Below, one piece after another: positions 4,137 through 51,483 of a DNA stretch of 64,000 nt. Every line of letters begins with the position of its first letter. Positions within the stretch are counted from its first letter, which is position 1. Where the stretch lies: positions 30,877 to 94,876 of the forward strand of contig JAJRSF010000024.1 of NCBI GenBank assembly GCA_024278935.1, read 5' to 3'. The position numbers were made by a program, and so were the translations under genes. Source of the DNA: Candidatus Zixiibacteriota bacterium (GTDB taxonomy: Bacteria > Zixibacteria > MSB-5A5 > GN15 > FEB-12). The notes beneath the pieces are model-generated. The model searched no databases. It saw nothing but the letters and a program-made list of their open reading frames with translations, and had not been told where the DNA came from.

Positions 4137-6339
4137 TAGCACAATTATAACATCCTGACTCAAAACGCATAGGCGATGAACAGCTTGGGCAGACTTCAAA
4201 CGTTTCTGACTTAGAACTGTCTTTATCGCCAAAATGCTTGTTCAAAATTTGCGCAATTGCATCGGGAATTGAGAATACTTTGGCTCCACCGGCATATATT
4301 TGGTTTGAACCTCCGATTGAACGAAGCTGCGATATTATAGTATCTACCGGAATCTGAGAGCGTAAGGCAAGCGATATAAGACGGCTGATAGCCTCGGTAT
4401 CTGCCATTGTGGTGTAGCCTGATTTACCGATTTGGGCAAACAGTTCAAACGGTTTGCCATCTTTGAGGTTGATAGTGACATACAAATTGCCGTAGCCTGT
4501 TTTCAGCTTTTCAGTGATACCTTGTAAAACATCAGGACGTTTTTCAACAAACGGTTCTGATTCATCGGTTGTTTTTTTACGGATTGGAGCAAGGACTTGG
4601 TTGGGGCGTGAATTATCCCGATAAATTGTGACGCCTTTGCATCCGAGTTGGTAGGCTGTCAAAAATGCACGGGCGACATCTTCGATAGTGGCAGATTCTT
4701 CAAAGTTGATTGTCTTTGAGACCGACGAATCTGAATGTTTCTGGAAGAGTGCCTGCATTTTGATATGTTCATCTGCGGAAACATCGGCGGCAGTTAGAAA
4801 TATAGCTTTCATCTGTTCAGGGATATCATCGATATCTTTGAGAGATCTTTCCGATGCTACCCTCTCAAACAATTCTTCGGAATAGAAATTTTGTTTTTCA
4901 GCAAGCTCTTTAAAAAAATTGTTCACTTCAATCAGCTTGGTGCCATCCATAACATTTCGTTCAAAAGCTATCGAATAATATGGTTCGATACCTGATGAGC
5001 ATCCTGCTATAATTGAGATTGTCCCGGTTGGGGCGATAGTTGTGACGGTTGCGTTTCGCATCGAGATATTTTGATCTTTGTAAATAGAGTTTTCCCAGTT
5101 TGGAAATTTACCACGAGTCTTGGCAAGTTCCGATGAATGCTTGCGAGCTTCCAGTTCGATAAAGGCGGAGATTTCTTCGGCAAGTTGTAAAGCCTGTTCG
5201 CTGTTATATGGAATATTGAGTTGTACAAGAATGTCAGCCCATCCCATTATGCCGAGACCGATGCGACGGTTCTTATAGGTCTGCTCTTCTATTTGCGGAA
5301 GCGGATAAGAATTTTGGTCGATGACATTGTCTAGAAAATGTACGGCAGTACGGACGACATCGCCAAGTTTTTCCCAGTCAATAGAGTCAGTTGTATTCTC
5401 TGAATTTGAATCCAATACAAATTGTGAGAGGTTGATAGAACCAAGATTACAGGAATCATACGGTGGGAGCGGTTGTTCGCCGCACGGGTTGGTAGCCTCG
5501 ATTGTTTCCGATGGCGATGTTGGGTTGAGACGGTTCATACGGTCGATAAAAATTATGCCTGGCTCGCCAGTCTGCCAAGCGTGGTTGACAATCGTATCAA
5601 ACAGTTCCTGGGCATCAAGCCAGATTTCTTTGCCATCTCTTACAAAGACGGTTTGGGTACGAGGGTCTATCAGTGGGAACTTATCTTTGTTTGCGAGAGC
5701 TTCCATAAATGAATCTGTTATAGCTACGGATATATTAAAGTTTTTAATTTTATTTGTATTCTCTTTACAGGAGATAAATTCTAAAATATCAGGATGGTCA
5801 ATCCGAAGGATTCCCATATTGGCACCCCGCCTAGTTCCTCCCTGTTTGACCGCTTCTGTTGATGCGTCATAGACTGACATAAACGAGACTGGTCCTGAAG
5901 CTATCCCTGATGTTGATGCGACGATTGAATCTCTCGGGCGTAAGCGTGAGAATGAGAAACCTGTTCCCCCGCCTGATTTATGAATGATAGCGGCGTGTTT
6001 GTTGGTTTCAAAAATTTCTTCCATTGAGTCGCCAACGGGAAGGACAAAACAGGCGGAGAGCTGGCCATTGGCACGACCTGCATTCATAAGTGTTGGTGAG
6101 TTTGGGAGGAAACAGAGCGATGAAATTATATCATAAAATTTCCGTGATGTTTTTTTTATTTCAATTTCTGAAGCACCGTAATTTTTATCAGCATCTGCAA
6201 TAAATTCTGCGACTCTGAAAAACAGCTCACGCGGGGTCTCTTTGATATTCCCTTTTGTGTCCTTAAACAGGTACCGTCTTTTAAGTACCGCCAGAGCATT
6301 TTCGGTCAATTTTGATTCTTTATATTGTATCATATTCAT
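4114..6339 (-). CDS. nrdJ: Vitamin B12-dependent (class II) ribonucleoside-diphosphate reductase
   Basis: 741 aa; NPCGEQPLPPYDSCNLGSINL motif, APTGTISIIAGCSSGIEP, C-terminal Cys-rich zinc finger CPSCSSPMRFESGCYNCASCGYSNC. Confidence 0.95.
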   Translation of the reverse strand: MNMIQYKESKLTENALAVLKRRYLFKDTKGNIKETPRELFFRVAEFIADADKNYGASEIEIKKTSRKFYDIISSLCFLPNSPTLMNAGRANGQLSACFVLPVGDSMEEIFETNKHAAIIHKSGGGTGFSFSRLRPRDSIVASTSGIASGPVSFMSVYDASTEAVKQGGTRRGANMGILRIDHPDILEFISCKENTNKIKNFNISVAITDSFMEALANKDKFPLIDPRTQTVFVRDGKEIWLDAQELFDTIVNHAWQTGEPGIIFIDRMNRLNPTSPSETIEATNPCGEQPLPPYDSCNLGSINLSQFVLDSNSENTTDSIDWEKLGDVVRTAVHFLDNVIDQNSYPLPQIEEQTYKNRRIGLGIMGWADILVQLNIPYNSEQALQLAEEISAFIELEARKHSSELAKTRGKFPNWENSIYKDQNISMRNATVTTIAPTGTISIIAGCSSGIEPYYSIAFERNVMDGTKLIEVNNFFKELAEKQNFYSEELFERVASERSLKDIDDIPEQMKAIFLTAADVSADEHIKMQALFQKHSDSSVSKTINFEESATIEDVARAFLTAYQLGCKGVTIYRDNSRPNQVLAPIRKKTTDESEPFVEKRPDVLQGITEKLKTGYGNLYVTINLKDGKPFELFAQIGKSGYTTMADTEAISRLISLALRSQIPVDTIISQLRSIGGSNQIYAGGAKVFSIPDAIAQILNKHFGDKDSSKSETFEVCPSCSSPMRFESGCYNCASCGYSNC

Positions 6340-33809: not shown

Positions 33810-34829
33810 TTGAACAAAGAGGAATGCAATATGGAAAAATATTCACCCCGTGAACGTATAGAAATGATAATTGCCGGCGAGAAACCGGATAGATATGCAG
33901 CATCTTTTTGGAGACACTTTTTTCATCTGGAAAATTCTGCCCAAGGAACTGCCGATGCAATGCTTTATTTTCAGAAAGAATTCAAATGGGATTTTATGAA
34001 AATAAATCCGAGAGCTGATTTCCATATTGAAGACTACGGTTTCACCCATATTTTTTCAAAAGATGAGTTCACAAAACACACAAAAACAAATTTCCCGATT
34101 TCTACTATTGATGATTGGGCAAAAATTAAAGAGATAGATATTCGCTCCAAAGCTCTTGATGAACATCTGCAGATGGTCTCGCTGATTCGGAAAGGGTCAG
34201 ATAAAGAACTTCCGATTTTAATGACTATCTTCTCACCTGTTGCAATTGCCGGACGGATGGTATCTGACCGGTCTATCATGGCTGAACATATTAAGACAAA
34301 TCCAGAAATTGTATTTGAAGCAGTTTCTAATATTGCCAAGACATTTGAAAAGTATATTGTCGAACTTCGTAATGCCGGTGCTGATGGAATTTTTTATGCT
34401 ACGACTCAATGGGCAACAACAAATCTTATCAACTGGGATGAGTATCAAAAATTTGGATTACCATTTGATTTACAACTTTTAAAAGCAAGCGGTGATGATG
34501 CTTTAAATGTATTTCATATCTGTTCATCGAATAATTATTTGAAAAATATAATGGAGCCTGACTTCAACGCCCAGATTATTAACTGGGAAACGGACGACCC
34601 TACCAATATGCCACTCGATATCGGTCTTGAAACTTATCCAAACAAAGTAATTTTAGGTGGTGTTGACCATAACGGTTGGTTGATGCACTCCCCTCCCAAT
34701 GAAGTGAAGTATCAGATTGATAAGTTAAAAGAAAATTCGGATTCATCACGTTTTATCATCGGCCCCGGTTGTGCGGTTGAGCCGAAAGTTTCTTTTGATA
34801 ACTACCGTGCAATACGGGAGAATCTATGA
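33810..34829 (+). CDS. Uroporphyrinogen decarboxylase (URO-D) family protein
   Basis: MEKYSPRERIEMIIAGEKPDRYAASFWRHFF..., NVFHICSSNNYL, GLETYPNKVILGGVDHNGWL, FIIGPGCAVEP. Confidence 0.8.
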   Translation: MNKEECNMEKYSPRERIEMIIAGEKPDRYAASFWRHFFHLENSAQGTADAMLYFQKEFKWDFMKINPRADFHIEDYGFTHIFSKDEFTKHTKTNFPISTIDDWAKIKEIDIRSKALDEHLQMVSLIRKGSDKELPILMTIFSPVAIAGRMVSDRSIMAEHIKTNPEIVFEAVSNIAKTFEKYIVELRNAGADGIFYATTQWATTNLINWDEYQKFGLPFDLQLLKASGDDALNVFHICSSNNYLKNIMEPDFNAQIINWETDDPTNMPLDIGLETYPNKVILGGVDHNGWLMHSPPNEVKYQIDKLKENSDSSRFIIGPGCAVEPKVSFDNYRAIRENL

Positions 34830-35812: not shown

Positions 35813-36574
35813 ATGAAAAAAGTTATACTTCTGATATATCTATTTAGCATTTGCCTGAGTTTGCAAGCCTCAAACTTTGTCGATTTGGGCAAAGAGATTC
35901 GGATCCCACTTCCTAAGAATTGGCAAGTAGCAGGAGATAGTGGCTTCTATCCATTTCAAATAATCAATGACGCACTCACCGCTGAGTTATTGATATATAA
36001 ATCAATAATAGATAAATCCGAAGCTATCCACACTAACCAAGAATTGAAAGAGTCTGTTGATATAATAATTTCTGATATTATAATGACACTTCCCGAGGCA
36101 AAGTTATTATCAAGCACCGGAAAGATAGATGATAATAGAGCAATTTTCTCATTGGACTTTATTTCGGTAGATACAATTACAAACGGACAGATTCATCATC
36201 GTTTAAATGGCTACTTGTATGATCATCCGAACGGTGAGCAAATTTTGTTTACACTGTGGGGAAAGACTAGTAATAGTTCTAAAGATTTATTGCACAAAGA
36301 AATTTTACTGATGCAAAATAATTTTTCATTCTATGGCGAGTCTAACGGCAGACTATTTCAAACAAACAGTGATGTTGATTGGAAAGTTTTAGTAGTTATT
36401 CTGGTTCTGATTTTAGCTGTTTTATTATTTTTCAGAAAGCATAAAGCGATAGAATCAATTCAGTTTTCAGAGGATTCACATTTTTGGCGATGTTCGTGTG
36501 TACGGCAAAACCATATGAATAATCTGCTTTGCAAAAGATGCGGTCAGCAAAACAATATTAAAGAGTCGGTTTAG
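35813..36574 (+). CDS. Hypothetical exported/TM protein with cytosolic C-terminal zinc-ribbon-like motif
   Basis: Signal peptide, C-terminal TM VLVVILVLILAVLLFF, then WRCSCVRQNHMNNLLCKRCGQQN. Confidence 0.55.
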   Translation: MKKVILLIYLFSICLSLQASNFVDLGKEIRIPLPKNWQVAGDSGFYPFQIINDALTAELLIYKSIIDKSEAIHTNQELKESVDIIISDIIMTLPEAKLLSSTGKIDDNRAIFSLDFISVDTITNGQIHHRLNGYLYDHPNGEQILFTLWGKTSNSSKDLLHKEILLMQNNFSFYGESNGRLFQTNSDVDWKVLVVILVLILAVLLFFRKHKAIESIQFSEDSHFWRCSCVRQNHMNNLLCKRCGQQNNIKESV

Positions 36575-36986
36575 GGAACTCTTCAAGTTCTATTAAAACG
36601 CCATTCATATCTTTTGGCTGTATGAAAGCAATTTTATTTCCATCAGCACCAATTCGAGGAACTTCATCAATTAGACGAACACCCTCTGCTTTTAATTCAG
36701 CAAGTTTTTTTTCGATATCCTCAACATAGATACAAACATGATGCAACCCCTCACCTTTTGAATCAAGAAACTTCGCAATAGGAGAGTCATCTGTAGATGG
36801 TGCGACCAGTTCAATTCTGGCACCTCCACCACAACATCCACCTTTGAAGATAGCAGCTTTTACTTTTTGGTCTGCAACATCATGAATAGCAGGGTTGTCA
36901 TCTCCAATAAGCAAAGAGTATTTTTTGAGTGCTTTTTCAAAGTCTTTGACTGCGATTCCAACATGAGAAATTAGCGGAATATCCAT
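36558..36986 (-). CDS. mce: Methylmalonyl-CoA epimerase
   Basis: ISHVGIAVKDFEKALKKY, KVKAAIFKGG, IELVAP, GLHHVCIYVEDIE. Confidence 0.9.
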   Translation of the reverse strand: MDIPLISHVGIAVKDFEKALKKYSLLIGDDNPAIHDVADQKVKAAIFKGGCCGGGARIELVAPSTDDSPIAKFLDSKGEGLHHVCIYVEDIEKKLAELKAEGVRLIDEVPRIGADGNKIAFIQPKDMNGVLIELEEFPKPTL

Positions 36987-37558
36987 TATTCATCTTCCCA
37001 ATTTGATGCTTCTTCGGCTTGTCTGATAAGGTCTTCATACTCAAGTTGGTTTTTAATAACAGAGATAGTCGGTTTAATCCATTTATCATTATGATAATAA
37101 ACGATGAGTCTTTGTTCTGTCATTTCTTGAATTTTGTCTTCAGCAAATTTGAGTTCTATAGTTACCCATGCCAAGGCAGAGTCATGGGCAAACATTTCCA
37201 GTGAATCAACTTCCAATGAGATAACTTCGCCGGGAGCATGATAGGTAATCTGCGCATATGTAAGATATTTATCAAATGAATGTTCATCTGTATAATAAGA
37301 AAATTCATTTTCATACAATCCAGAATTATCAAAATAAAGAAGACGTTCCATTGCTTCCCATAGAGAAGCTTGGATAGTGTCTTGAACCGTTAAAAGCTCT
37401 TTTGGTATATAGCTTGAGTCGACTATCTCTTGTTGAGTCGCGACATCAGTATTTTCAGAACTCTCTTTATTTGATGTGTCGTTTGAACATCCTATAAATA
37501 TTAATAAAAAAGAAAATATTATGGATACTAGCGGTATATTCTTATAAATGTTTTTCAT
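36986..37558 (-). CDS. Hypothetical lipoprotein
   Basis: [27 protein letters not shown] lipobox. Confidence 0.6.
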
Positions 37559-39128
37559 GATATTCACCCCATACGTCTCGTAGTGCATTTGCTATTTCTC
37601 CAACGGTTGCATAATTTTCTACTGCTTCAATTACATAAGGTACAATATTTTTATTCCCTTTGGCAACTTCTTTAAGTTGCTTGAGTTGTGCTTGTACTAT
37701 TTTGTTGTCACGTCTTGCTTTGAGAGCAGTTAGTTTTTCAACTTGCTCTTTTTCCAGATTTGGATCAACTTTTAAGATATCCGGAATTTGTGGTGATGTT
37801 GTTTGAAATTTATTTATACCAACAACAGTGATATCTTCTTTTTCAATATCTTTTTGATATGTATATGCCGACCGAGCTATTTCATCACGAAAATAACCTG
37901 TTTCAATACAAGCGACCGAGCCATCTTTCTCTTCAATTTCATCAAGAAGTTTTTGAATTTTAACTTCAAGTTCTTTTGAGAGAAATTCCATGTAGTAAGA
38001 ACCTGCCAAAGGGTCGGCAGTATCGGCGACACCGTTTTCATAGGCGAGTACTTGTTGAGTACGAAGAGCGATCTCTGCGGATTTTTCTGTTGGCAAACCA
38101 AGGGCTTCATCGAATGAATTTGTATGCAGCGACTGTGTTCCGCCTAAAATTGCTGCCAGTGCTTGCATCGTTGTACGAATAATATTGTTCTCCGGTTGCT
38201 GTGCGGTAAGAGTTGAACCACCAGTTTGGGTATGGAACCGAAGAAGCAACGCTTTTGGATTGGTTGCTTTAAATTTATCCTTCATAATGTTTGCCCAGAA
38301 TTTGCGAGCAAGACGGAACTTGGCAACCTCTTCAAAAAGATTTGAATGCGACGCAAAGAAAAACGAAAGACGTGGAGCGAATTCGTTTACATCGAGTCCT
38401 GCTGTAATCGCAGCTTTCACATAGGCGATCCCGTTTGACAAAGTAAAGGCAACTTCCTGAGCTGCGGTAGAACCTGCTTCACGAATGTGGTAACCGGAGA
38501 TTGAAATTGTGTTAAACTTCGGAAGGTTTTCTTTGGCGTAATCAAAAATATCGGTAATTATTCGCATGGATGGCGAAGGCGGATAGATATAAGTTCCTCG
38601 AGCTATAAATTCTTTTAAGATATCATTCTGAATTGTACCCATCAGTTTTTCTTGCGGTACACCCTGCTTTTTCCCGGCTGAAATATATAGAGCCAGCAAA
38701 ATAACGGCAGTCGAATTTATTGTCATAGAGGTTGAAACTTTATCAAGCGGGATGCCGTCAAAAAGTGTTTCCATATCTTCAAGCGAATCAATGGCAACCC
38801 CTGTACGACCAACTTCACCCTTTGCCATTGGGTGATCAGAGTCATAACCGATTTGTGTTGCTAAATCAAAGGCAATCGATAGACCTGTCTGACCTTGTTC
38901 AAGCAAATATTTATACCGTTTGTTGGATTCAACAGCAGTTCCGAAGCCAGTATATTGTCGCATTGTCCAGAATCGTCCCCGATACATATTGGGATAGACG
39001 CCACGTGTGTATGGAAATTCGCCAGGCAATGATGGTGAGTTGTCAGGAAGGGTGACGTCATCAGGATGAATCGAAATTGGAATTTCAATATCGGAAGTTG
39101 TCTTTTTCATATCACTCATTTTTAGCAA
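37542..39128 (-). CDS. Methylmalonyl-CoA mutase large (catalytic) subunit, MCM-type (Tyr/Arg)
   Basis: [58 protein letters not shown]; no B12-binding domain. Confidence 0.92.
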
Positions 39129-39630
39129 ACTCCAAAATCAAGTCACCCTTTTCAACCGACTGTCCGGCATCAATAGCAATACTTTCGATAACGGCATCAC
39201 CTGATGCTTTGATAACATTTTCCATTTTCATTGCTTCAATGATTACCAGTGGGTCACCTTTTTTAACTGTGTCACCAACGGCGACTTTGAATTCTAAAAC
39301 TAAACCCGGCATAGGTGCTTTGAGGGACAGATCCATCTTGGCAGTTGACGACATGCCTGCTTTTTTCTTGAGCTGGGCAAGATTATAATTTTCAATCTCA
39401 ACCGGAATCTCTTGTCCTAAAACAAATACTGTTTTAGCGTTGTCATAGCCATTAGAACGAACATCAACTTCAAATGATTTATTGTTCAAAAGCATTATCG
39501 AACGACTGTCGGCGAGTTGGTGCGACTCGATTATAACTTCTTTGCCGTTTATCGTTGCATAATATTTTTCTGACTTATATTCGATGTCAATATCAAATTC
39601 TTTGTCATCTATTTTAACTGAGTAACGCAT
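39112..39630 (-). CDS. Biotin carboxyl carrier protein of acyl-CoA carboxylase
   Basis: [20 protein letters not shown] biotinyl motif; start MRYSVKIDD. Confidence 0.88.
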
Positions 39631-41152
39631 TAAGAGTTCCCCCCTAATCTTTTGACTGCTTGTTTCCGATGATGATTTTTCCATTCGGACTGTTTGTTAT
39701 TATTATCTTCTGATAAAAGAATTTTTCGTTCGTTAATAAAAGTATCAACAGCAACAGCGAGTGCTGCTTGCTCTTTGAGTTCATCACTCAGAATAACAAA
39801 ATTGTGGTCAGGGTATTCTTCATTGATAAAAGCTGTCGAAATATCACCGCTTATAAATTTTTCATTATCCATTACTACACGACAAAAACCGATTGTCGTT
39901 TTTAAACCAGACACACGGTATTCTTCGAGGGCTCGTTTACATCGTTCGATAGCCTCGGTACGATCTTTTCCCCAGACAATCATTTTAGCAATCATTGGGT
40001 CATAGTAAATCGGAACTTCAGAATAAATGACAACGCCTGAATCAACCCGCACGCCAGGACCAGCCGGGAGTCGGTAATTTTTGAGTACGCCTGTACATGG
40101 CATAAAATTTTGCTGTGGGTCTTCAGCACAAATTCGGCACTCGATAGAATGTCCGTTGATGCCGATATCGTCTTGGGTAAGGGTCAGCTTGGCACCCTCG
40201 GCGACGGCGATCTGTTCTTTTACTAAGTCAACTCCAGTGACAAGTTCTGTGACAGGATGCTCGACTTGGAGTCGCGTGTTTACTTCTAAGAAGTAATACG
40301 ACATATCTTCATCAACCATAAACTCGACCGTTCCCGCACCGACATAATGTGTCTCTTTGCAAATACGAAGGGCAGCGTCGCCCATCTCTTTGCGAAGTTC
40401 AGGAGTCATCACAGGTGATGGGGATTCTTCGATAAGTTTTTGGTGGCGTCGTTGGATAGAACATTCACGTTCGTTCAGATGTATACCATTGCCATGTTGG
40501 TCGGTCAAAATTTGTATTTCGATATGACGAGGGCGTAATAAATATTTTCCTATGTATACCCGACCATCACCAAAAGCAGAGATTGCCTCTGAAGCTGCCC
40601 GTTTGAGACCCTCTTCGAAATCTTCAGGTTTTTCAACAACCCGCATACCTTTACCACCACCACCTGCGGCAGCTTTGACAAGAATAGGATATCCGATTTC
40701 ATCAGCTTTGATAAGAGCATCTTGCATATTTTCATTATCAAATTCACAACCGGGAACCAAAGGCATATCAGATGCGATAGCTACTTTGCGAGCCTCTAAT
40801 TTGTCACCGAGTAGTCTGATTGTTTCAGGTTTTGGTCCGATGAAAATTATGTTTTCGTCGATACACCGCTGGGCAAACTCGGCATTCTCTGCGAGGAACC
40901 CATAGCCGGGATGGATTGCATCGGCACCTGAATCTTTGGCAGCTTTGATAATATTGTCTTGTACGAGATATGATTCTGATGACGGTGAAGCTCCGATATG
41001 GAAAGCTTCGTCTGCCATGCGAACATGGTATGCCGATGCGTCAGCATCGGAGAAAACTGCGACCGATGTAATGCCGATGTCACGACAGGCACGGATAATG
41101 CGAACGGCTATTTCGCCACGGTTCGCTATAAGTATTTTTTTATTTTTTTCAT
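39630..41152 (-). CDS. Acyl-CoA (propionyl-CoA) carboxylase biotin carboxylase subunit; N-terminus out of frame with its ATG
   Basis: HPGYGFLAENAEFAQ, KAAAGGGGKGMRVV, FLEVNTRLQVEHPVTELVTG; KKILIANRGEIAVRII lies upstream of the track's M at 41018 in the same frame, without an in-frame start. Confidence 0.9.
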
Positions 41153-41165
41153 ATTATCTCCCCCC

Positions 41166-42716
41166 CTACAATGGGATGTTGCCATGTTTTTTTGGAGGGT
41201 TAGAATCCTGTTTTGTCTCAAGCATTTCAAAAGCACGTATCAAACGAGGACGAGTTGTCTTTGGCTCGATAACATCATCGACATATCCACGAGAAGCAGC
41301 GTTAAACGGATTGGCAAATTCTGTTTGGTAATCATCGGTGAGTTCTTGCAGTTTAGCTTCCGGGTCATCGGAATCAGAAATAACTTTTTTGAAAATAATT
41401 TCGACAGCACCCTTGGAACCCATCACCGCAATTTCCGCAGTTGGCCAAGCGTAGTTCATGTCGCCACGGACATGTTTTGAATTCATAACATCATAGGCAC
41501 CACCGTAAGCTTTGCGAGTGATGACTGTAATTTTAGGAACGGTCGCTTCGCAGTAGGCATACAAAAGTTTGGCACCATTTTTGATAATCCCACCATGCTC
41601 TTGGTCGACACCCGGCAAGAAACCCGGGACATCTTCGAGAGTAAGAAGCGGAATATTGAAAGCATCGCAGAACCGAATAAGACGGGCAGCTTTGATAGAT
41701 GAATCAGAGTCAAGCACGCCAGCCATTACTGCCGGTTGGTTGCCGATGATTCCGATAGAACGTCCGCCAAGATGTGCGAAGCCGACAAGTATGTTTTGTG
41801 CGAAGTCAGCATGTACTTCGAAGAAAGAACCTTTGTCAACGATAGAGCCGATGACATCTTTCATATCGTATGGTTGGTTTGGATTTTCAGGAATAATTTT
41901 ATTTAGTGATTCATCTTCACGAGTAAGTGGGTCGGTGCATTCGACAAATGGCGGATCTTCTAAATTATTTTGTGGAACGTAACGCATCATCTGTTTGAGT
42001 TTGGTAATTGTATCCGCTTCATTTTCACAAGCGAAGTGTGCGACGCCTGATTTTGATGCGTGGACTATTGCTCCACCGAGTTCTTCGGATGTTACATCTT
42101 CGTGGGTCACAGTCTTGACAACGTTTGGTCCTGTGACAAACATATACGATGTGTTTTTTGTCATAAAAGTGAAGTCGGTTATTGCAGGAGAGTATACCGC
42201 ACCACCGGCACAAGGTCCGAGGATGAGAGATATCTGCGGAATGACACCCGAGGCTAAAGTGTTGAGAAGAAAAATATCTGCGTAGCCACCAAGCGAAACA
42301 ACGCCCTCTTGAATCCGAGCACCGCCGGAGTCATTGAGACCGATAACAGTGGCGCCAACTTTCATAGCCATTTCCATAATCTTACAAATTTTTTCGGCAT
42401 GTGCTTCTGATAAAGAACCACCAAAGACAGTGAAATCTTGCGAGAAGATATAGGTTATGCGTCCGTTAATTTTACCGCACCCGGTAATGACACCATCGCC
42501 TAAGAATTTTTGTTTTTCAAGTCCGAACTGATGAGAACGGTGGGTGACAAACATATCGAACTCTTCAAATGAATTTTCATCAACCAAAAGTTCAATCCGT
42601 TCACGGGCGGTAAGTTTACCTTTTTTGTGTTGCGATTCAATTCTTTTTTCACCACCGCCAAGCTTGGCTTTGGTTCGCATTTCTTCGAGTTTATTTAGTT
42701 TTTCTTCAAGTGACAT
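41166..42716 (-). CDS. Acyl-CoA (propionyl-CoA) carboxylase carboxyltransferase subunit
   Basis: 516 aa; [63 protein letters not shown]. Confidence 0.94.
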
Positions 42717-42847: not shown

Positions 42848-43684
42848 TTAACCGTCTACTTTTTCAATGTTGAATCTTTTGCCATCTGCTTTTACTTTTG
42901 CAAATGGATTATTTTTATCATGGTCAAATGCCATGATAACATTGTCGTTTAAAATCTCAGGTAATTTTTTTCTTTTTATTTCCATCGTATCAAGCGGATA
43001 TAAATCGGATGCGGAATTAAATGCAAGCGGCAAGTGTGTTGCCGCCATAAAAATATCCGCATAATAAAAAACTTTTTGTCCGTCTGATTCCATTTCAATG
43101 GCAAAGTGTCCTGCGGTATGTCCACCAGTGTGGACTAAATTTATTCCCGGGAAGAGTTCATAGTTGCCATCAATCAGTTGCAACTGCCCGGCATCTTTTA
43201 TAGCGTAGTATCGGTCGGGAATGTAGACAGCCGATGTTCGTTCGTTAGGATGCGTGGCAACTTCAAATTCAGTTTGTGAAACAACGTAAGTGGCGTTTTT
43301 AAAACGTGGTACAAATTTTTCATCGTCAAGTTTAACAGCACCACCGGCGTGGTCGGTATGTAAATGAGTGAGGATGACATAGTCGATATCATCTTCTGTG
43401 AGACCAATAGATTGTAATCCTTCAGTCATGGTTGACTCACCAACTGTTCCGTAGATTTTCTTTTCTATGTCAGTTAATGTATCGCCCAAGCCAGTATCGA
43501 AAATAAAAATTTTGCCGTGAGCTTTTAGGACAAACAGATTGCATACCATTTCGATCAGATTATTTTCGTCAGGTTTGGCAAGTTTTTGCCACATGGTACG
43601 AGGGATAACCCCAAACATAGAACCTCCGTCGAGTTTAAAATTATGCTCGACGAAGGTTTTAATTTCAAAATCACCAAATTTCAT
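42848..43684 (-). CDS. MBL-fold metallo-hydrolase
   Basis: YVILTHLHTDHAGG (HxHxDH), LVHTGGHTAGH. Confidence 0.9.
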   Translation of the reverse strand: MKFGDFEIKTFVEHNFKLDGGSMFGVIPRTMWQKLAKPDENNLIEMVCNLFVLKAHGKIFIFDTGLGDTLTDIEKKIYGTVGESTMTEGLQSIGLTEDDIDYVILTHLHTDHAGGAVKLDDEKFVPRFKNATYVVSQTEFEVATHPNERTSAVYIPDRYYAIKDAGQLQLIDGNYELFPGINLVHTGGHTAGHFAIEMESDGQKVFYYADIFMAATHLPLAFNSASDLYPLDTMEIKRKKLPEILNDNVIMAFDHDKNNPFAKVKADGKRFNIEKVDG

Positions 43685-44829
43685 TAGCGACCTATAACAG
43701 AGCCTGCTATAACGAGACGCTGAACCTCTGAGGTACCTTCATAAATTTCAAGGACTCTTTGGTCACGGTAGAATTTCTCGATAGTTGAGAACTCACCGAT
43801 ATATCCGTAGCCTGCGTGGATCTGCATTGCTTTTTGACAGCAGAAATTTGCAGTTTCAGAAGAATACAATTTCGCCATGGCAGCTGCGGTAGAATATTTT
43901 TCTTCTTTATCTTGCAATTGAGCAGCTTTGTATGTCAACGCTCTGGCAGCTTCAACACGAGTTGCCATATCAGCGATCATCCATTGAATAGCTTGTAGCT
44001 TTGCAATCGGCGCACCAAAAGCAATACGTTTTTTTGCGTAGGCAATAGAATCATCAAGCATTCTTTGAGCAAGACCTAAACCTTGAGCAGCAACACCAAC
44101 ACGAGCAGAGTCGAGAGTAATCATTGCGTAGCGGAAGCCACGACCTGTATCACCAAGTAAGTTTGCTGTTGGAACACGAACATCTTTTATAATAATTTCG
44201 CCGGTTGTTGCAGCACGCATACCCATTTTATTTACAAGAGTACGTCCCTTCCAACCCGGGTCGTCTGTTTCAACTAAGATAGCAGAAAGTTTTGGTTTGC
44301 CTTCGATTTTACAGAAAAGAACTGCGACATCAGCAGCATCACCATGCATGATAAATATTTTCTCACCATTGATAACATAATCGTCACCATCTTCAACTGC
44401 GACAGTAGAAAGATTGGATGCATCGGAACCTGCGTTGCGTTCTGTTAGAACAAATGCTGGAACGATTTCGCCGGCGGCACATTTTGGTACAAATTTTTTC
44501 TTTTGTTCATCATTGGCGAAATAAATGATAGGATATGTTGCAAGTTCGCCAACAGCAGTTAAAAGTCCGACAGCAGGGTCATGGTAGCAAAGTTCTTCGA
44601 GCAAAGTAATATACTCAAGATGTGATTTTCCTGAACCGCCAAATTCTTTAGGCATGCCAAATCCGATAAATCCGGCTTTACCAAGTTTGCCATAAAGCTC
44701 TCTTGGGAACTTCCGAGGTTCCGGCATTTGGTCTAATTCACGAGTGATAGGATAGATTTCTTTGTCAGCAAAAGCTTTGACAAGATCACGAACTTCCTGT
44801 TGTTTTGGATCTACGTTTTTGTTCATATT
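43684..44829 (-). CDS. Acyl-CoA dehydrogenase
   Basis: FVLTERNAGSDAS, DVRVPTANLLG, IHAGYGYIGEFSTIEKFYRDQRVLEIYEGTSEVQRLVIA. Confidence 0.92.
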   Translation of the reverse strand, partial: NMNKNVDPKQQEVRDLVKAFADKEIYPITRELDQMPEPRKFPRELYGKLGKAGFIGFGMPKEFGGSGKSHLEYITLLEELCYHDPAVGLLTAVGELATYPIIYFANDEQKKKFVPKCAAGEIVPAFVLTERNAGSDASNLSTVAVEDGDDYVINGEKIFIMHGDAADVAVLFCKIEGKPKLSAILVETDDPGWKGRTLVNKMGMRAATTGEIIIKDVRVPTANLLGDTGRGFRYAMITLDSARVGVAAQGLGLAQRMLDDSIAYAKKRIAFGAPIAKLQAIQWMIADMATRVEAARALTYKAAQLQDKEEKYSTAAAMAKLYSSETANFCCQKAMQIHAGYGYIGEFSTIEKFYRDQRVLEIYEGTSEVQRLVIAGSVIGR

Positions 44830-44863
44830 ATCTCCCTGAGACAACTATAAAATTATGATTAAG

Positions 44864-45283
44864 TTACATTATATTTTCATCTGATTTTTTTAATTTCATT
44901 GCTTCTTGTAAAAATTTGATTGCTTCAATTGTTGGAGCACCCGGAGTGAAAACTTTGGCAACGCCAAGTTTTTCAAGTTCTGCTTTATCGTCATCGGGAA
45001 TAATTCCGCCACCGAACAAAATAATATCGGACGAATCTTTTTCTTTTAAGACATCCAGTATTGCCGGGAAAAGTGTCATGTGGGCTCCCGAAAGAATGGA
45101 GACACCAATAGCGTCGACATCTTCCTGAATAGCAGCATCAACAATCATCTGCGGTGTTTGACGAAGACCGGTGTAGATAACTTCCATGCCGGCATCGCGT
45201 AGTGCTGCTGCGATAACTTTGATCCCACGGTCGTGACCGTCGAGACCTGGTTTTGCGAGTAAAACTCTTATTTTTTTATCCAT
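44864..45283 (-). CDS. Cobalamin-binding small subunit of a B12-dependent acyl-CoA mutase
   Basis: [29 protein letters not shown] (DxHxxG), [14 protein letters not shown]. Confidence 0.92.
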
Positions 45284-45307: not shown

Positions 45308-45931
45308 TTATGCTATTTCTAATTTAACAAATCTGTTGTTACTGCTGTCGGCTGCCCATAACGACTCGCCGTCGAATGTCATTCCTGAAATTGAAAATTC
45401 AACCGAGAACTTTTCAATCTCGCCTGTCTTAGGGTCAACCTTAAAGAGAAAAGATTCACCATCAATCTCTCCGCCATGCCAAAAGAAAGAACCATCAAAA
45501 GTAAGTCCTGATGTTGAGGCACCTGTTTTTATAGCACGAAGTTCTTTGCCATCTTCAGGGTCAAAGAAAATAATCTCTTTGCGAATCCAGGAACCACGTA
45601 CAAATTCATTGCCGGTATAACAAAGCCCTGAACATTTATCGGGTGTGTCTAGTGTTCTGACAACTGAGCCATCATGCGGGTTTAAAATATAAATCTGCAT
45701 TGTAGTAGGTGATGCTTGCCAGACATGCTGACCATCAAAAGTTGTATCGCAACAGGCTGATTCAATATAATATTTTTTTAAGACTTCGCCGGACAAAGCA
45801 ACTTGAAAAAGTGTATGCTCTGCCAAATCATAATACCAAAAAGATTCACCATCCCAAGCAAGTCCGCACGCAGATCTGCCAGGTGATTTTACCGATTCGG
45901 TTATTATAACTTGTTGTACAGCGTTCATCAT
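45308..45931 (-). CDS. Glutamine-cyclotransferase/SMP-like beta-propeller protein
   Basis: Repeated GLAWDGESFWYYD, DTTFDGQHVWQAS, GLTFDGSFFWHGG, GMTFDGESLWAAD blades. Confidence 0.65.
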   Translation of the reverse strand: MMNAVQQVIITESVKSPGRSACGLAWDGESFWYYDLAEHTLFQVALSGEVLKKYYIESACCDTTFDGQHVWQASPTTMQIYILNPHDGSVVRTLDTPDKCSGLCYTGNEFVRGSWIRKEIIFFDPEDGKELRAIKTGASTSGLTFDGSFFWHGGEIDGESFLFKVDPKTGEIEKFSVEFSISGMTFDGESLWAADSSNNRFVKLEIA

Positions 45932-45960: not shown

Positions 45961-47670
45961 TTATGAGGCACTCATTGCGGCTTGAGATTCAGAATATTCA
46001 CCCCACTCTTCGCGGAGTACATCGCACATTTCACCAGCCGAGACATAGGCTCTGGCACAATCCATCATTGCTTCAAAAGTATTTCCGTCGGATTTGGCGG
46101 CAGCACGAAGTTTTTCAAGCGTTTCCTGCACTTTGACATTGTCACGTTCTGCTTTAATTTTTTGGCAGAATGCTTTTTGTTCTTGTTCAACATTTTTATC
46201 AATTTTTAATACCGGAATATCAATAACTTCATTTTCTACTATAAAATCATTCACACCAACAATGATGCGGTCTTTCTTTTCAAGTTCCATCTGGTGTTGA
46301 TAGGCAGAGCGAGCAAGTTCTTTCTGGAAAAAGCCATCTTCGATACACTGAAGCACGCCACCACGTTTGTCGATTTCATCAAAATATACTTCCGCTTCCG
46401 CTTCCATTTTGTCAGTCATTGCTTCAACAAAATATGAACCACCTAAAGGATCAACAGTATTAACAACGCCGGTTTCATAGGCGATAACTTGTTGGGTACG
46501 CAAAGCGATAAGGGCAGCTTTTTCAGATGGCAACGCCAGAGTTTCATCCATCGAGTTTGTATGCAGAGATTGAGTTCCACCTAAGACACCCGAGAGGGCT
46601 TGAATTGCTGTACGGACAATATTGTTTTCCGGTTGCTGTGCGGTGAGTGAACATCCTGCTGTTTGAGTATGGAACCGAAGGAGCCAGCTCTTAGGGTTTT
46701 TAGCTCCATATTTATTTTTCATACGTTTGGCAAAGATTCGTCGTGCCGCTCTATATTTTCCGATCTCTTCAAAGAAATCTGAATGAGCATTAAAGAAGAA
46801 TGATAGGCGAGGTGCGAAATCGTCGACATCCTGACCATCGGCAATAGCTGCTTCAATGTAGCAGAAGCCATCGGCAAGTGTGAACGCTAATTCTTGTGCA
46901 GCGGTTGCCCCTGCTTCACGAATGTGATAGCCGGAGATTGAAATTGTATTCCACTGCGGGACATGCTTGGTACAATATGACATCATATCGGTAATAAGTC
47001 TGATAGATGGTTTTGGTGGGAAGATAAATTCTTTTTGTGCGATATACTCTTTGAGAATGTCATTCTGTAAAGTTCCGCGCACATCCTTGAGATCAACGCC
47101 TTGTTTTTCGGCAACAACCAAATACATAGCGAGTACCATTGATGCTGGCGAGTTGATTGTCATAGATGTAGAAACTTTTCCAAGATCGATATCTTTGTAA
47201 ATAATTTCCATATCAGCAAGGGTATCGACAGCCACGCCGCATTTACCAACTTCACCAAGTGAACGTTCGTGGTCGGAATCGTAGCCCATAAGGGTCGGCA
47301 TATCAAAAGCTGTTGAAAGCCCTGTGCCACCTTGTGCTAAAATAAATTTGAAACGGTCGTTCGTGTTTTGTGGTGTACCCATTCCTGCGAATTGTCGCAT
47401 TGTCCAAAGTTTGGAGCGGTACAAAGTTTGATGCACTCCACGGGTATATGGGAATTGTCCCGGGAGTCCGATATTTTCATCGTAATGGTTTTCATCGGTT
47501 GCCCCTTTGAGTGAGTCCGGGGTGTATAGTTCGTCGACATCTTCACCTGAAACAGTGAAAAAGCGTGGTAAAGATTTTCTTGCCCGAAACCGTTCTGCCG
47601 ATTTATCCCATTCTTTTAATTTCTCTTTAAGCCGTGCTATAAAACTCTTGTTAAACATATAATTCTCCAA
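45961..47670 (-). CDS. B12-dependent acyl-CoA mutase large subunit, predicted isobutyryl-CoA mutase type (Phe/Gln)
   Basis: [72 protein letters not shown]. Confidence 0.85.
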   Translation of the reverse strand: MENYMFNKSFIARLKEKLKEWDKSAERFRARKSLPRFFTVSGEDVDELYTPDSLKGATDENHYDENIGLPGQFPYTRGVHQTLYRSKLWTMRQFAGMGTPQNTNDRFKFILAQGGTGLSTAFDMPTLMGYDSDHERSLGEVGKCGVAVDTLADMEIIYKDIDLGKVSTSMTINSPASMVLAMYLVVAEKQGVDLKDVRGTLQNDILKEYIAQKEFIFPPKPSIRLITDMMSYCTKHVPQWNTISISGYHIREAGATAAQELAFTLADGFCYIEAAIADGQDVDDFAPRLSFFFNAHSDFFEEIGKYRAARRIFAKRMKNKYGAKNPKSWLLRFHTQTAGCSLTAQQPENNIVRTAIQALSGVLGGTQSLHTNSMDETLALPSEKAALIALRTQQVIAYETGVVNTVDPLGGSYFVEAMTDKMEAEAEVYFDEIDKRGGVLQCIEDGFFQKELARSAYQHQMELEKKDRIIVGVNDFIVENEVIDIPVLKIDKNVEQEQKAFCQKIKAERDNVKVQETLEKLRAAAKSDGNTFEAMMDCARAYVSAGEMCDVLREEWGEYSESQAAMSAS

Positions 47671-48820: not shown

Positions 48821-50527
48821 ATGACAGACAAACAATTTTTGCAAATTGGTTCTATTCAAATTTCATCGACAATGCTCGTTCTTTTTGTATCGATACTACT
48901 AGCTTTGCATCATGGATTTACAGCAAACATTGGCAACCAAAACACCTATTTTCTCCAAGGTCTTCACTATTTCCAGCCTGACCTTTTTGCCCGTGATTGG
49001 TTAACAAATGAAACAACTCATTATCATCCATATTTCTCATGGATTGTTCATTCACTTTATTTCATCACTCCGAGTGGATGGTCTTTTGGTATTCTGAATT
49101 CTCTATTGAACGTAATTAGTATCGTATATATTTATAAAATAATAGAGACAATTTTCAAAGAATCAAAACCTCTTTTAATTTTTTTAATTGTCGCTTCTTT
49201 TATTGCTGCCGCGGAGACCTATTCTATAGGTGGAAGTTATATTTTTTCCCGTACATTCCAACCATCGACAATAGCAACATTTACTTTTATTGCCGGTTTA
49301 TATTATTTTTTAAACAGCAGATATCTTCATTCGGGAATTCTCTTAGCGATAGGTGGAATCTTTCATGTCAATTTTTTAATATTAGGGATACCACTTTACG
49401 GCGCCTATCATCTTTATCAGCGTGATAAGTTCTTTATAAGAAACAGTCTTAAGCAACTTGTACCATCTTTTATAGTTTTACTTCTGCATTTACCAGTAAT
49501 TATAGCAGCGTCTCTATCGCCCGATGCGACGCAAGCGCGATATATTTTTCAAGAGATCCATGCCCCACAACACTACATACCTATGACCTACCTTCGGGAA
49601 TTTTTGCCATTTTATAGTTGGCATTTTTTAGCATTTGTAATTGGATGGAAATATTTACCCTCTACTCCTATCATAAATAAATTTAAGAAACTTTTCATCA
49701 TACAATTTGTTTTTATAACTATTGCAAGCATTCTGACAACTGTCGTTTTTATCCCATCCGTATCACAATTATATGTGTGGAGATTGGCACCATTTTCTGT
49801 TTTAATTGCACAAATAATAGGTAGCTATGGAATCATAAAAAAAACTGACGTCGCTTATAAAAACGAATTTTCAGCAAAATATATTTCTCTGTTTCTTATC
49901 TATGGAGGACTGATTTATTTTATTTGGAATAACCATTATGGATGGTTTAAGTCAGTAACGCTTCGATCGCTTTTATTTTTAGGCTTAACAATAGTAGTCT
50001 GTGGGTTCGTGAAAAAATGTCTACAGTTAACATCTGCGAATCGTTTAAAACTGCAAACATTGATTCTGCTTATTCTTTTTACGTATGCTGCTGTCATTCC
50101 ATTACGAGAATTTCCAAATAGAATAAATTTGATCACAGGGCTCCCCGTTGCAGAAGTTTCCCTCTACAATTGGATTGATCGTAATATTTCCAAAGATGCA
50201 CTCTTTTTAATTCCTCCTCATTTTCAAAATTTTAGATTAAACGCAAAACGCTCCATCGTAGTTGATTGGAAATCACCACCGATTGTTGCATCGGAAATAA
50301 TAGAGTGGTATAATCGTATTGAAGATATTACCAACTATAAAGGTATTAAGAGTCCCGATGATGTCAGAGCATACTATGAGATGCATACATCGGAGAGTTT
50401 ACTGCATGTCTATAAAAAATATAACTGCGACTATATTGTCGTACACACGAAAGTAAACCCTGAAAAATATTCTGATTTTAAAATTTTATATTCAAATGAA
50501 AAGTATACGATTATACAGCAGAACTAA
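48821..50527 (+). CDS. Polytopic membrane protein, possible GT-C-type glycosyltransferase
   Basis: 568 aa, many TMs, soluble C-terminus; immediately follows GT2 gene. Confidence 0.55.
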   Translation: MTDKQFLQIGSIQISSTMLVLFVSILLALHHGFTANIGNQNTYFLQGLHYFQPDLFARDWLTNETTHYHPYFSWIVHSLYFITPSGWSFGILNSLLNVISIVYIYKIIETIFKESKPLLIFLIVASFIAAAETYSIGGSYIFSRTFQPSTIATFTFIAGLYYFLNSRYLHSGILLAIGGIFHVNFLILGIPLYGAYHLYQRDKFFIRNSLKQLVPSFIVLLLHLPVIIAASLSPDATQARYIFQEIHAPQHYIPMTYLREFLPFYSWHFLAFVIGWKYLPSTPIINKFKKLFIIQFVFITIASILTTVVFIPSVSQLYVWRLAPFSVLIAQIIGSYGIIKKTDVAYKNEFSAKYISLFLIYGGLIYFIWNNHYGWFKSVTLRSLLFLGLTIVVCGFVKKCLQLTSANRLKLQTLILLILFTYAAVIPLREFPNRINLITGLPVAEVSLYNWIDRNISKDALFLIPPHFQNFRLNAKRSIVVDWKSPPIVASEIIEWYNRIEDITNYKGIKSPDDVRAYYEMHTSESLLHVYKKYNCDYIVVHTKVNPEKYSDFKILYSNEKYTIIQQN

Positions 50528-51483
50528 GAGCCAATGTCTTTTGAATATTCATTATATAAGTCCCCTGCGACTGCATATGGGTCGGCATTCCCTTTATAGA
50601 TTGCTTCAATAGTTTGAGCAAAATCAACTTGGGATGCGAGTTTATCTACAATCTCTTTTTCGAATCGATTTTTTAAAATCGCTATTATCTTTTTCTCAAT
50701 TTGAAGCTGTCGATGAGTTTCGAAATTACCATTTGCTTTTATGAATGCAATATGTTCAAGAATCTTTTCAAACAGTTCTTCGATATTTTTCTTTTCAATT
50801 GCGACAGTCGGTATAACCGGAATCATCCAGGTATGTTCATCGTGTGCTTTAAACTCAAGTGCCGAACGTAAGTCAGTGACTATCCGATCAGAGTTTGGAC
50901 GGTCAGCTTTATTCACCGCAAAGACATCGGCGATTTCCATCAGCCCTGCTTTCATCGCCTGAACTGCATCGCCTGATTCAGGGACAAGAGTTACTACGAC
51001 TGTATCGCAGGCGTCGATAATATCTAGCTCGACTTGTCCGACTCCGACTGTTTCGACAATGGTAACATCAAACCCGAAAGCATCCATTGCGACCAAGACA
51101 TTATTTGTGGCAGCGGTAAGACCACCCGATGCACCCCGAGTTGCCATAGACCGAAAATAAATATCACCGTCGAGAGGAAACTCATTCATACGGACTCTAT
51201 CGCCGAGCAAAGCACCACCGGTGAAAGGTGATGATGGGTCGACTGCGATGACTCCGACTTTTTTATTTGCTTTGAGAAATTGATGTAGCAATCCATTGAC
51301 AAGGGTAGATTTACCCGCACCCGGCGGACCGGTCACTCCAATACGGATAGCATGGCCGCATTTAGAATAGAGCTTTCCTAAAAGTTCTCGGTAACCGTCT
51401 TGACGGTTCTCGATAAAACTGATTATTTTAGATAAAGCTCTTTTGTCACCGTTCTGAAATTTTTCAAGTACTGTCATAGGCAA
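50524..51483 (-). CDS. meaB: Methylmalonyl-CoA mutase-associated GTPase MeaB
   Basis: RIGVTGPPGAGKSTLVNGLL, VAVDPSSPFTGGALLGDRVRM, ETVGVGQVELDI, FAVNKAD. Confidence 0.94.
   Translation of the reverse strand: MPMTVLEKFQNGDKRALSKIISFIENRQDGYRELLGKLYSKCGHAIRIGVTGPPGAGKSTLVNGLLHQFLKANKKVGVIAVDPSSPFTGGALLGDRVRMNEFPLDGDIYFRSMATRGASGGLTAATNNVLVAMDAFGFDVTIVETVGVGQVELDIIDACDTVVVTLVPESGDAVQAMKAGLMEIADVFAVNKADRPNSDRIVTDLRSALEFKAHDEHTWMIPVIPTVAIEKKNIEELFEKILEHIAFIKANGNFETHRQLQIEKKIIAILKNRFEKEIVDKLASQVDFAQTIEAIYKGNADPYAVAGDLYNEYSKDIGS

Follow-up and report, generated by a model that had tools for sequence, protein, structure and literature searches.

Isobutyryl-CoA mutase (ICM) and methylmalonyl-CoA mutase (MCM) are separated by two specificity sites, according to a passage in PMC7238569, which cites Jost et al. 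(2015). The isomerisation of isobutyrate to butyrate is known in Syntrophomonadaceae, and Syntrophothermus lipocalidus carries it out to feed beta-oxidation (PMC5017805). Butyrate metabolism has also been reported in Zixibacteria (PMC10439189). The window analysed here, a stretch of 64,000 nucleotides, came from a Zixibacteria-type MAG (3.4 Mb, 95% complete), and the closest relative in the genome-contig search, with a mutase 93% identical, was a Candidatus Zixiibacteriota. An explanation with two B12 mutases (ICM and MCM), one cobalamin subunit loaded by one MeaB and a catabolic role is, as a whole, quite probable; the activities, the docking and the flux in it are predictions from sequence.

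Organisation of the locus

The operon lay on the minus strand, and both mutase ORFs were open and of full length. The order on this strand was recJ, meaB, two intervening plus-strand genes, the 45961-47670 mutase large subunit, a 207-aa propeller-like gene and the B12 small subunit. The small subunit was followed by an acyl-CoA dehydrogenase, a metallo-beta-lactamase-fold hydrolase, a carboxyltransferase, a biotin carboxylase and a biotin carrier, and the carrier by the 37542-39128 mutase large subunit, a small lipoprotein and a methylmalonyl-CoA epimerase. The features are as follows.

50524-51483, minus strand: MeaB-type GTPase chaperone (TIGR00750, 324.7 bits against a cut-off of 240.75; synteny)
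45961-47670, minus strand: ICM-type large (substrate-binding) subunit, 569 aa (TIGR00641, 731 bits; PF01642; F/Q signature; ICM clade)
47391-47389 and 47037-47035, minus strand: codons of F94 and Q212 in this subunit
45308-45931, minus strand: propeller-repeat-like protein, 207 aa, between the ICM large and small subunit genes (weak matches to PF21959/PF05096 below cut-off)
44864-45283, minus strand: stand-alone cobalamin-binding small subunit, 139 aa (TIGR00640, 168.9 bits; best PDB match HCM small subunit 4R3U_C)
43684-44844, minus strand: acyl-CoA dehydrogenase, butyryl-CoA/short-chain type (bit scores in the last section)
42848-43684, minus strand: metallo-beta-lactamase-fold hydrolase (PF00753; NF047919 below its cut-off; synteny)
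41166-42716, minus strand: carboxyltransferase subunit, MmdA/PccB type (TIGR01117, 808.6 bits, below the cut-off of 998.8)
39630-41152, minus strand: biotin carboxylase, frame interrupted (PRK08654/accC matches; DNA; comparison with locus L003)
39112-39684, minus strand: biotin carboxyl carrier protein (PF00364)
37542-39128, minus strand: MCM-type large subunit, 528 aa, without a B12 domain of its own (TIGR00641, 771 bits; Y/R signature; clade of short YR mutases)
38954-38952 and 38600-38598, minus strand: codons of Tyr59 and Arg177 in this subunit
36986-37588, minus strand: small putative lipoprotein between the MCM and epimerase genes (without a Pfam or NCBIfam match)
36558-36986, minus strand: methylmalonyl-CoA epimerase (TIGR03081, 140.7 bits against a cut-off of 114.95)

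The small subunit contained the K-x3-DxHxxG motif, and meaB lay upstream of the ICM gene throughout the phylum. The biotin carboxylase frame was broken directly after the ATG at 41152, where an A-run (41133-41152) lacked one base present in the close relative L003. Slippage, or an error of sequencing or assembly, probably accounts for the difference. The propeller-like gene was seen only in some close relatives (L003 and L133, and L153 at 36%) and is a lineage-specific insertion. It was rejected as a mutase component because it was absent from most sibling operons. At the same site, L003 had a further inserted ORF of 418 aa. The hydrolase was YtnP-like and was kept in the operon throughout the phylum, and its substrate may be an acyl-CoA or a lactone. 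The lipoprotein gene was present in most sibling operons, with conservation at 25-35%. A MtaA/URO-D-type methyltransferase-like gene (33810-34829, plus strand) lay just outside the operon and was followed by a gene for a GAF-domain protein.

Substrate class of the two large subunits

Both large subunits had TIGR00641 as their top match in the profile search, and a generic annotation would therefore name both of them MCM, as the first-pass annotation had anticipated. The same annotation had ascribed a Phe/Gln pair to the 45961-47670 subunit and a Tyr/Arg pair to its neighbour, each pair 118 residues apart. These residues were located in an alignment of 186 rows, which included P. shermanii MCM (1REQ_A), human MMUT, A. 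tertiaricarbonis HCM (4R3U) and relatives. In the 45961-47670 protein, F94 stood in the column of Tyr89 of 1REQ_A and Q212 in that of Arg207; the 37542-39128 protein had Y59 and R177 there. The spacing was 118 in both subunits, and no other residues occupied the positions equivalent to ICM 80/198 in the 45961-47670 protein. Its translation reads LWTMRQF...LKEYIAQKEFIF, the neighbour has FWTMRQY in the corresponding region, and all three motifs previously quoted for the former were present.

Two of the 186 rows lacked the specificity columns and were left out of the pair count. The 184 mutases with letters at both columns contained only three pairs, F+Q (120), Y+R (61) and I+Q (3, all HCMs), and the FQ, YR and IQ labels changed only twice on a 64-row tree. 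Hence, the split between F/Q and Y/R is not a product of chance. Phe/Gln was taken as the mark of ICM and Tyr/Arg as that of MCM.

The phylogeny was explored with two trees. On the 64-row tree, the FQ and HCM rows lay together on one side of a branch marked 100 (starred), the window MCM fell in a separate group of short YR mutases, and canonical MutB/MMUT formed a third group. On a careful 38-row tree, ICM and HCM formed a clade marked 99/99 (second value starred), which included a presumed S. cinnamonensis IcmA sequence. As the sole named IcmA row, this presumed sequence is a weak anchor; used as a query, it had no close homologue among the plasmid sequences. Phe and Gln were found in every non-HCM row of the ICM clade. 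The 45961-47670 protein stood in this clade and outside the MCM classes, and two loci of Syntrophomonadaceae MAGs (L065 and L078) belonged to the same FQ clade. The YR class was anchored by an Ilyobacter relative whose gene adjoins epimerase and Na+-translocating decarboxylase genes.

The assignment of 45961-47670 as a predicted ICM, in agreement with the earlier proposal, and of 37542-39128 as a predicted Tyr/Arg MCM drew support from the residues and the trees as well as from subunit architecture and gene context. The description of the neighbour as a "true" MCM stood in part: the subunit is of the Tyr/Arg MCM type but is not a canonical MutB, and belongs to a short class with a stand-alone B12 subunit. 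Judged by their sequences, the short YR mutases, putatively MCMs, are a class distinct from MutB. Three motifs of canonical MCM were altered in the short class: DLPTHRG (Gln-Ile in place of His-Arg), SFFW (Phe in place of Trp) and SGYHM (Ile in place of Met).

It is very improbable that the 45961-47670 protein is an ordinary MCM. Its matches to TIGR00641 and PF01642 were strong, but both carboxylate-binding residues were replaced, it grouped with the F/Q proteins and with no MCM class, and the same operon encoded a separate MCM. Canonical MCM was rejected on F and Q in place of Tyr89 and Arg207. Another monocarboxylic branched acyl-CoA, namely 2-hydroxyisobutyryl-CoA (HCM) or pivalyl-/isovaleryl-CoA (PCM), is an improbable substrate. 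HCM was nested in the wider ICM clade, and IcmF, a related ICM, has been reported to act on pivalyl- and isovaleryl-CoA as well (PMC10481361); against this, HCM has Ile and Asp where the window protein has Phe and Ala, the acyl-CoA ligase and adenosyltransferase genes of HCM clusters were absent here, and a butyryl-CoA dehydrogenase gene lay downstream. HCM was rejected on Phe at the Tyr89 position and Ala for the Asp of the STDFD motif. IcmF was rejected as well, with the B12 domain, G domain and mutase in separate genes and an NF045497 score of 367 bits against a cut-off of 1500.

One cobalamin subunit and two large subunits

The window genome encoded two PF01642 large subunits and one stand-alone mutase-type B12 subunit (44864-45283), a disparity that the first-pass annotation had overlooked. 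A second mutase-type B12 protein was not found in this genome, where the only other PF02310 match was a protein of 506 aa resembling a radical-SAM enzyme. All 26 Zixibacteria genomes whose FQ and YR large subunits were checked by sequence had the same gene content; they were chosen for two readable large subunits and not at random (G000, G005-G008, G010, G013, G014, G016, G017, G022, G027, G028, G042, G043, G045, G053, G054, G063, G073, G077, G081-G083, G089, G095). Each had exactly one TIGR00640 match over the curated cut-off, always near the FQ gene, and a YR large subunit without a B12 domain. Six of these genomes were single contigs (G008, G016, G017, G063, G081, G082), and in G017 over 1 Mb separated the YR gene from the small subunit and the FQ gene. 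Gaps in a MAG may account for a single case but do not explain 26 out of 26 well. The gene order of the operon was kept across much of the class. Moreover, one FQ, one YR and one small subunit each were counted, without completeness figures, in five genomes of other phyla: Coatesbacteria G106 (L019, one chromosome), Ignavibacteriales G108 (L026), Rubrobacteraceae G109 (L076), Melioribacteraceae G110 (L014) and Neomarinimicrobiota G111 (L030).

The large subunits were 52% identical over 528 aligned positions, which makes a common docking face plausible. The small-subunit tree had too few columns to order the descent of ICM partners and MCM partners. Most ICM genes at L013-L064 (Ignavibacteria, Neomarinimicrobiota) had neither a small-subunit gene nor meaB in their vicinity, and in the genomes checked a single small subunit was located elsewhere. 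In the single-contig genome G082 (L122), an extra mutase-like ORF (4301-6100), 38% identical to ICM, directly followed the ICM gene.

Relatives with other gene sets served as natural experiments. Loci L006 and L011 had the operon without the short MCM, and their genomes (G098, G099) encoded a MutA/MutB pair, with a B12 domain in MutB, and kept ICM and the small subunit. G035 likewise had MutAB with its own B12 domain, lacked the short MCM and kept ICM and the small subunit. G052 apparently had MutAB alone: neither of its two matches was an ICM, and no stand-alone small subunit scored over the cut-off. The Syntrophomonadaceae genome G107 (locus L078) had two large and two small subunits, one small subunit beside each large one.

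The small subunit might instead serve ICM only, with the short MCM inactive or using another, diverged cobalamin protein; this is unlikely. The small-subunit gene was always beside the ICM gene in Zixibacteria, and many relatives had weak B12-domain matches (211-257 aa corrinoid-type proteins and MetH-size proteins), and a corrinoid protein of about 220 aa, far below the cut-off, is one candidate alternative. On the other hand, the window genome had no other mutase-type B12 protein. Furthermore, throughout the phylum the aligned short MCM retained its two specificity residues as well as Tyr243/His244, and it was missing in three genomes with MutAB; these two observations argue for a real MCM function of the short MCM.

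Sharing of the subunit is the simplest reading of the gene content across genomes, and we infer that the 44864-45283 subunit, and probably one MeaB, would serve both mutases. In its general form, the proposal is that two mutases of different substrate class share a single cobalamin-binding subunit and a single MeaB. The cofactor part would be an interchangeable module, conserved across Zixibacteria and present in single genomes of several other phyla, and the dependent MCM would be missing where a self-sufficient MutAB is present. This proposal is likely to be correct. It is the new part of the analysis, as the ICM assignment alone adds to a known kind. A literature search found nothing on a shared B12 subunit, which is a weak negative, as the primary ICM and HCM papers were poorly covered.

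Metabolic role and comparison with known systems

The gene after the ICM small subunit was of the butyryl-CoA dehydrogenase type, and the MCM gene was grouped with propionyl-CoA-carboxylase-type genes and the epimerase. The best solved relative of the dehydrogenase (43684-44844) was 5OL2 (chain C, 333 bits), the C. difficile butyryl-CoA dehydrogenase complex; SCADs scored 282-288 bits, and 1RX0, human isobutyryl-CoA dehydrogenase ACAD8, only 211 bits. Contig C64 held crotonase, thiolase, 3-hydroxybutyryl-CoA dehydrogenase and two more acyl-CoA dehydrogenase genes within about 10 kb. The window genome had three full-length matches of the 2-oxoacid:ferredoxin oxidoreductase type and no methylmalonate-semialdehyde dehydrogenase over the cut-off. 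This gene set fits a route from valine or isobutyrate via isobutyryl-CoA and butyryl-CoA to beta-oxidation.

In the proposed mechanism, MeaB (50524-51483) would load the cobalamin subunit, which would dock on either large subunit and bring AdoCbl, and the 5'-deoxyadenosyl radical derived from it would initiate both rearrangements. The large subunits would probably take turns with the sole B12 subunit. With Phe and Gln in place of Tyr and Arg, the two residues that hold the carboxylate of methylmalonyl-CoA, the 45961-47670 enzyme is predicted to interconvert isobutyryl-CoA and n-butyryl-CoA, and the 37542-39128 protein would be an MCM that depends on an external B12 domain. Isobutyryl-CoA, for example from valine, would be converted to butyryl-CoA. 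The neighbouring butyryl-CoA dehydrogenase would oxidise this product, and crotonase, 3-hydroxybutyryl-CoA dehydrogenase and thiolase, whose genes lie elsewhere, would take the oxidation further. Propionyl-CoA would pass through the carboxylase, epimerase and MCM to succinyl-CoA.

A catabolic role of the operon is most likely, with the flux direction suggested by gene content. The ICM may also run in reverse, from butyryl-CoA to isobutyryl-CoA, for branched fatty acids or isobutyrate production. This is a minor possibility: the reaction is reversible, and Clostridia form isobutyrate via butyryl-CoA:isobutyryl-CoA mutase (PMC7764203), but the propionyl-CoA-carboxylase-type genes, MCM and epimerase, with the beta-oxidation set elsewhere, fit catabolism, though gene content cannot fix the direction.

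One routine name for both mutases means that annotation probably hides the isobutyrate/valine metabolism of Zixibacteria and of related, uncultured lineages from sediment. Sharing of the B12 subunit, if real, would couple propionate and isobutyrate metabolism through cofactor loading, and the large subunits would compete for a single carrier. The pair would then be a natural system for the recognition of two catalytic barrels by one B12 domain.

Like the window ICM, the IcmA/IcmB type of Streptomyces cinnamonensis has a Phe/Gln large subunit (about 566-569 aa) and a separate B12 subunit (about 136-139 aa). The window differs in having MCM in the same operon and, apparently, a single small subunit for both large subunits. 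HcmA/HcmB (4R3U) shares the two-subunit architecture and is the best solved relative of the large and small subunits, but has Ile/Gln and Asp rather than Phe/Gln and Ala, shows 48% identity and has other neighbours. MutAB/MMUT (1REQ, 2XIJ) shares the fold and the catalytic Tyr243/His244 with the window mutases; its B12 domain is fused, whereas the window MCM, 49-50% identical, is short and would need a separate B12 subunit. IcmF (4XC6) resembles the window ICM in mutase-domain homology and substrate class, but fuses the B12 domain, G domain and mutase that are three separate genes in the window. The Slip_0757-0760 cluster of Syntrophothermus lipocalidus likewise combines a two-part ICM with a MeaB-like protein; unlike the window, it includes an adenosyltransferase, and MCM is not mentioned (PMC5017805).
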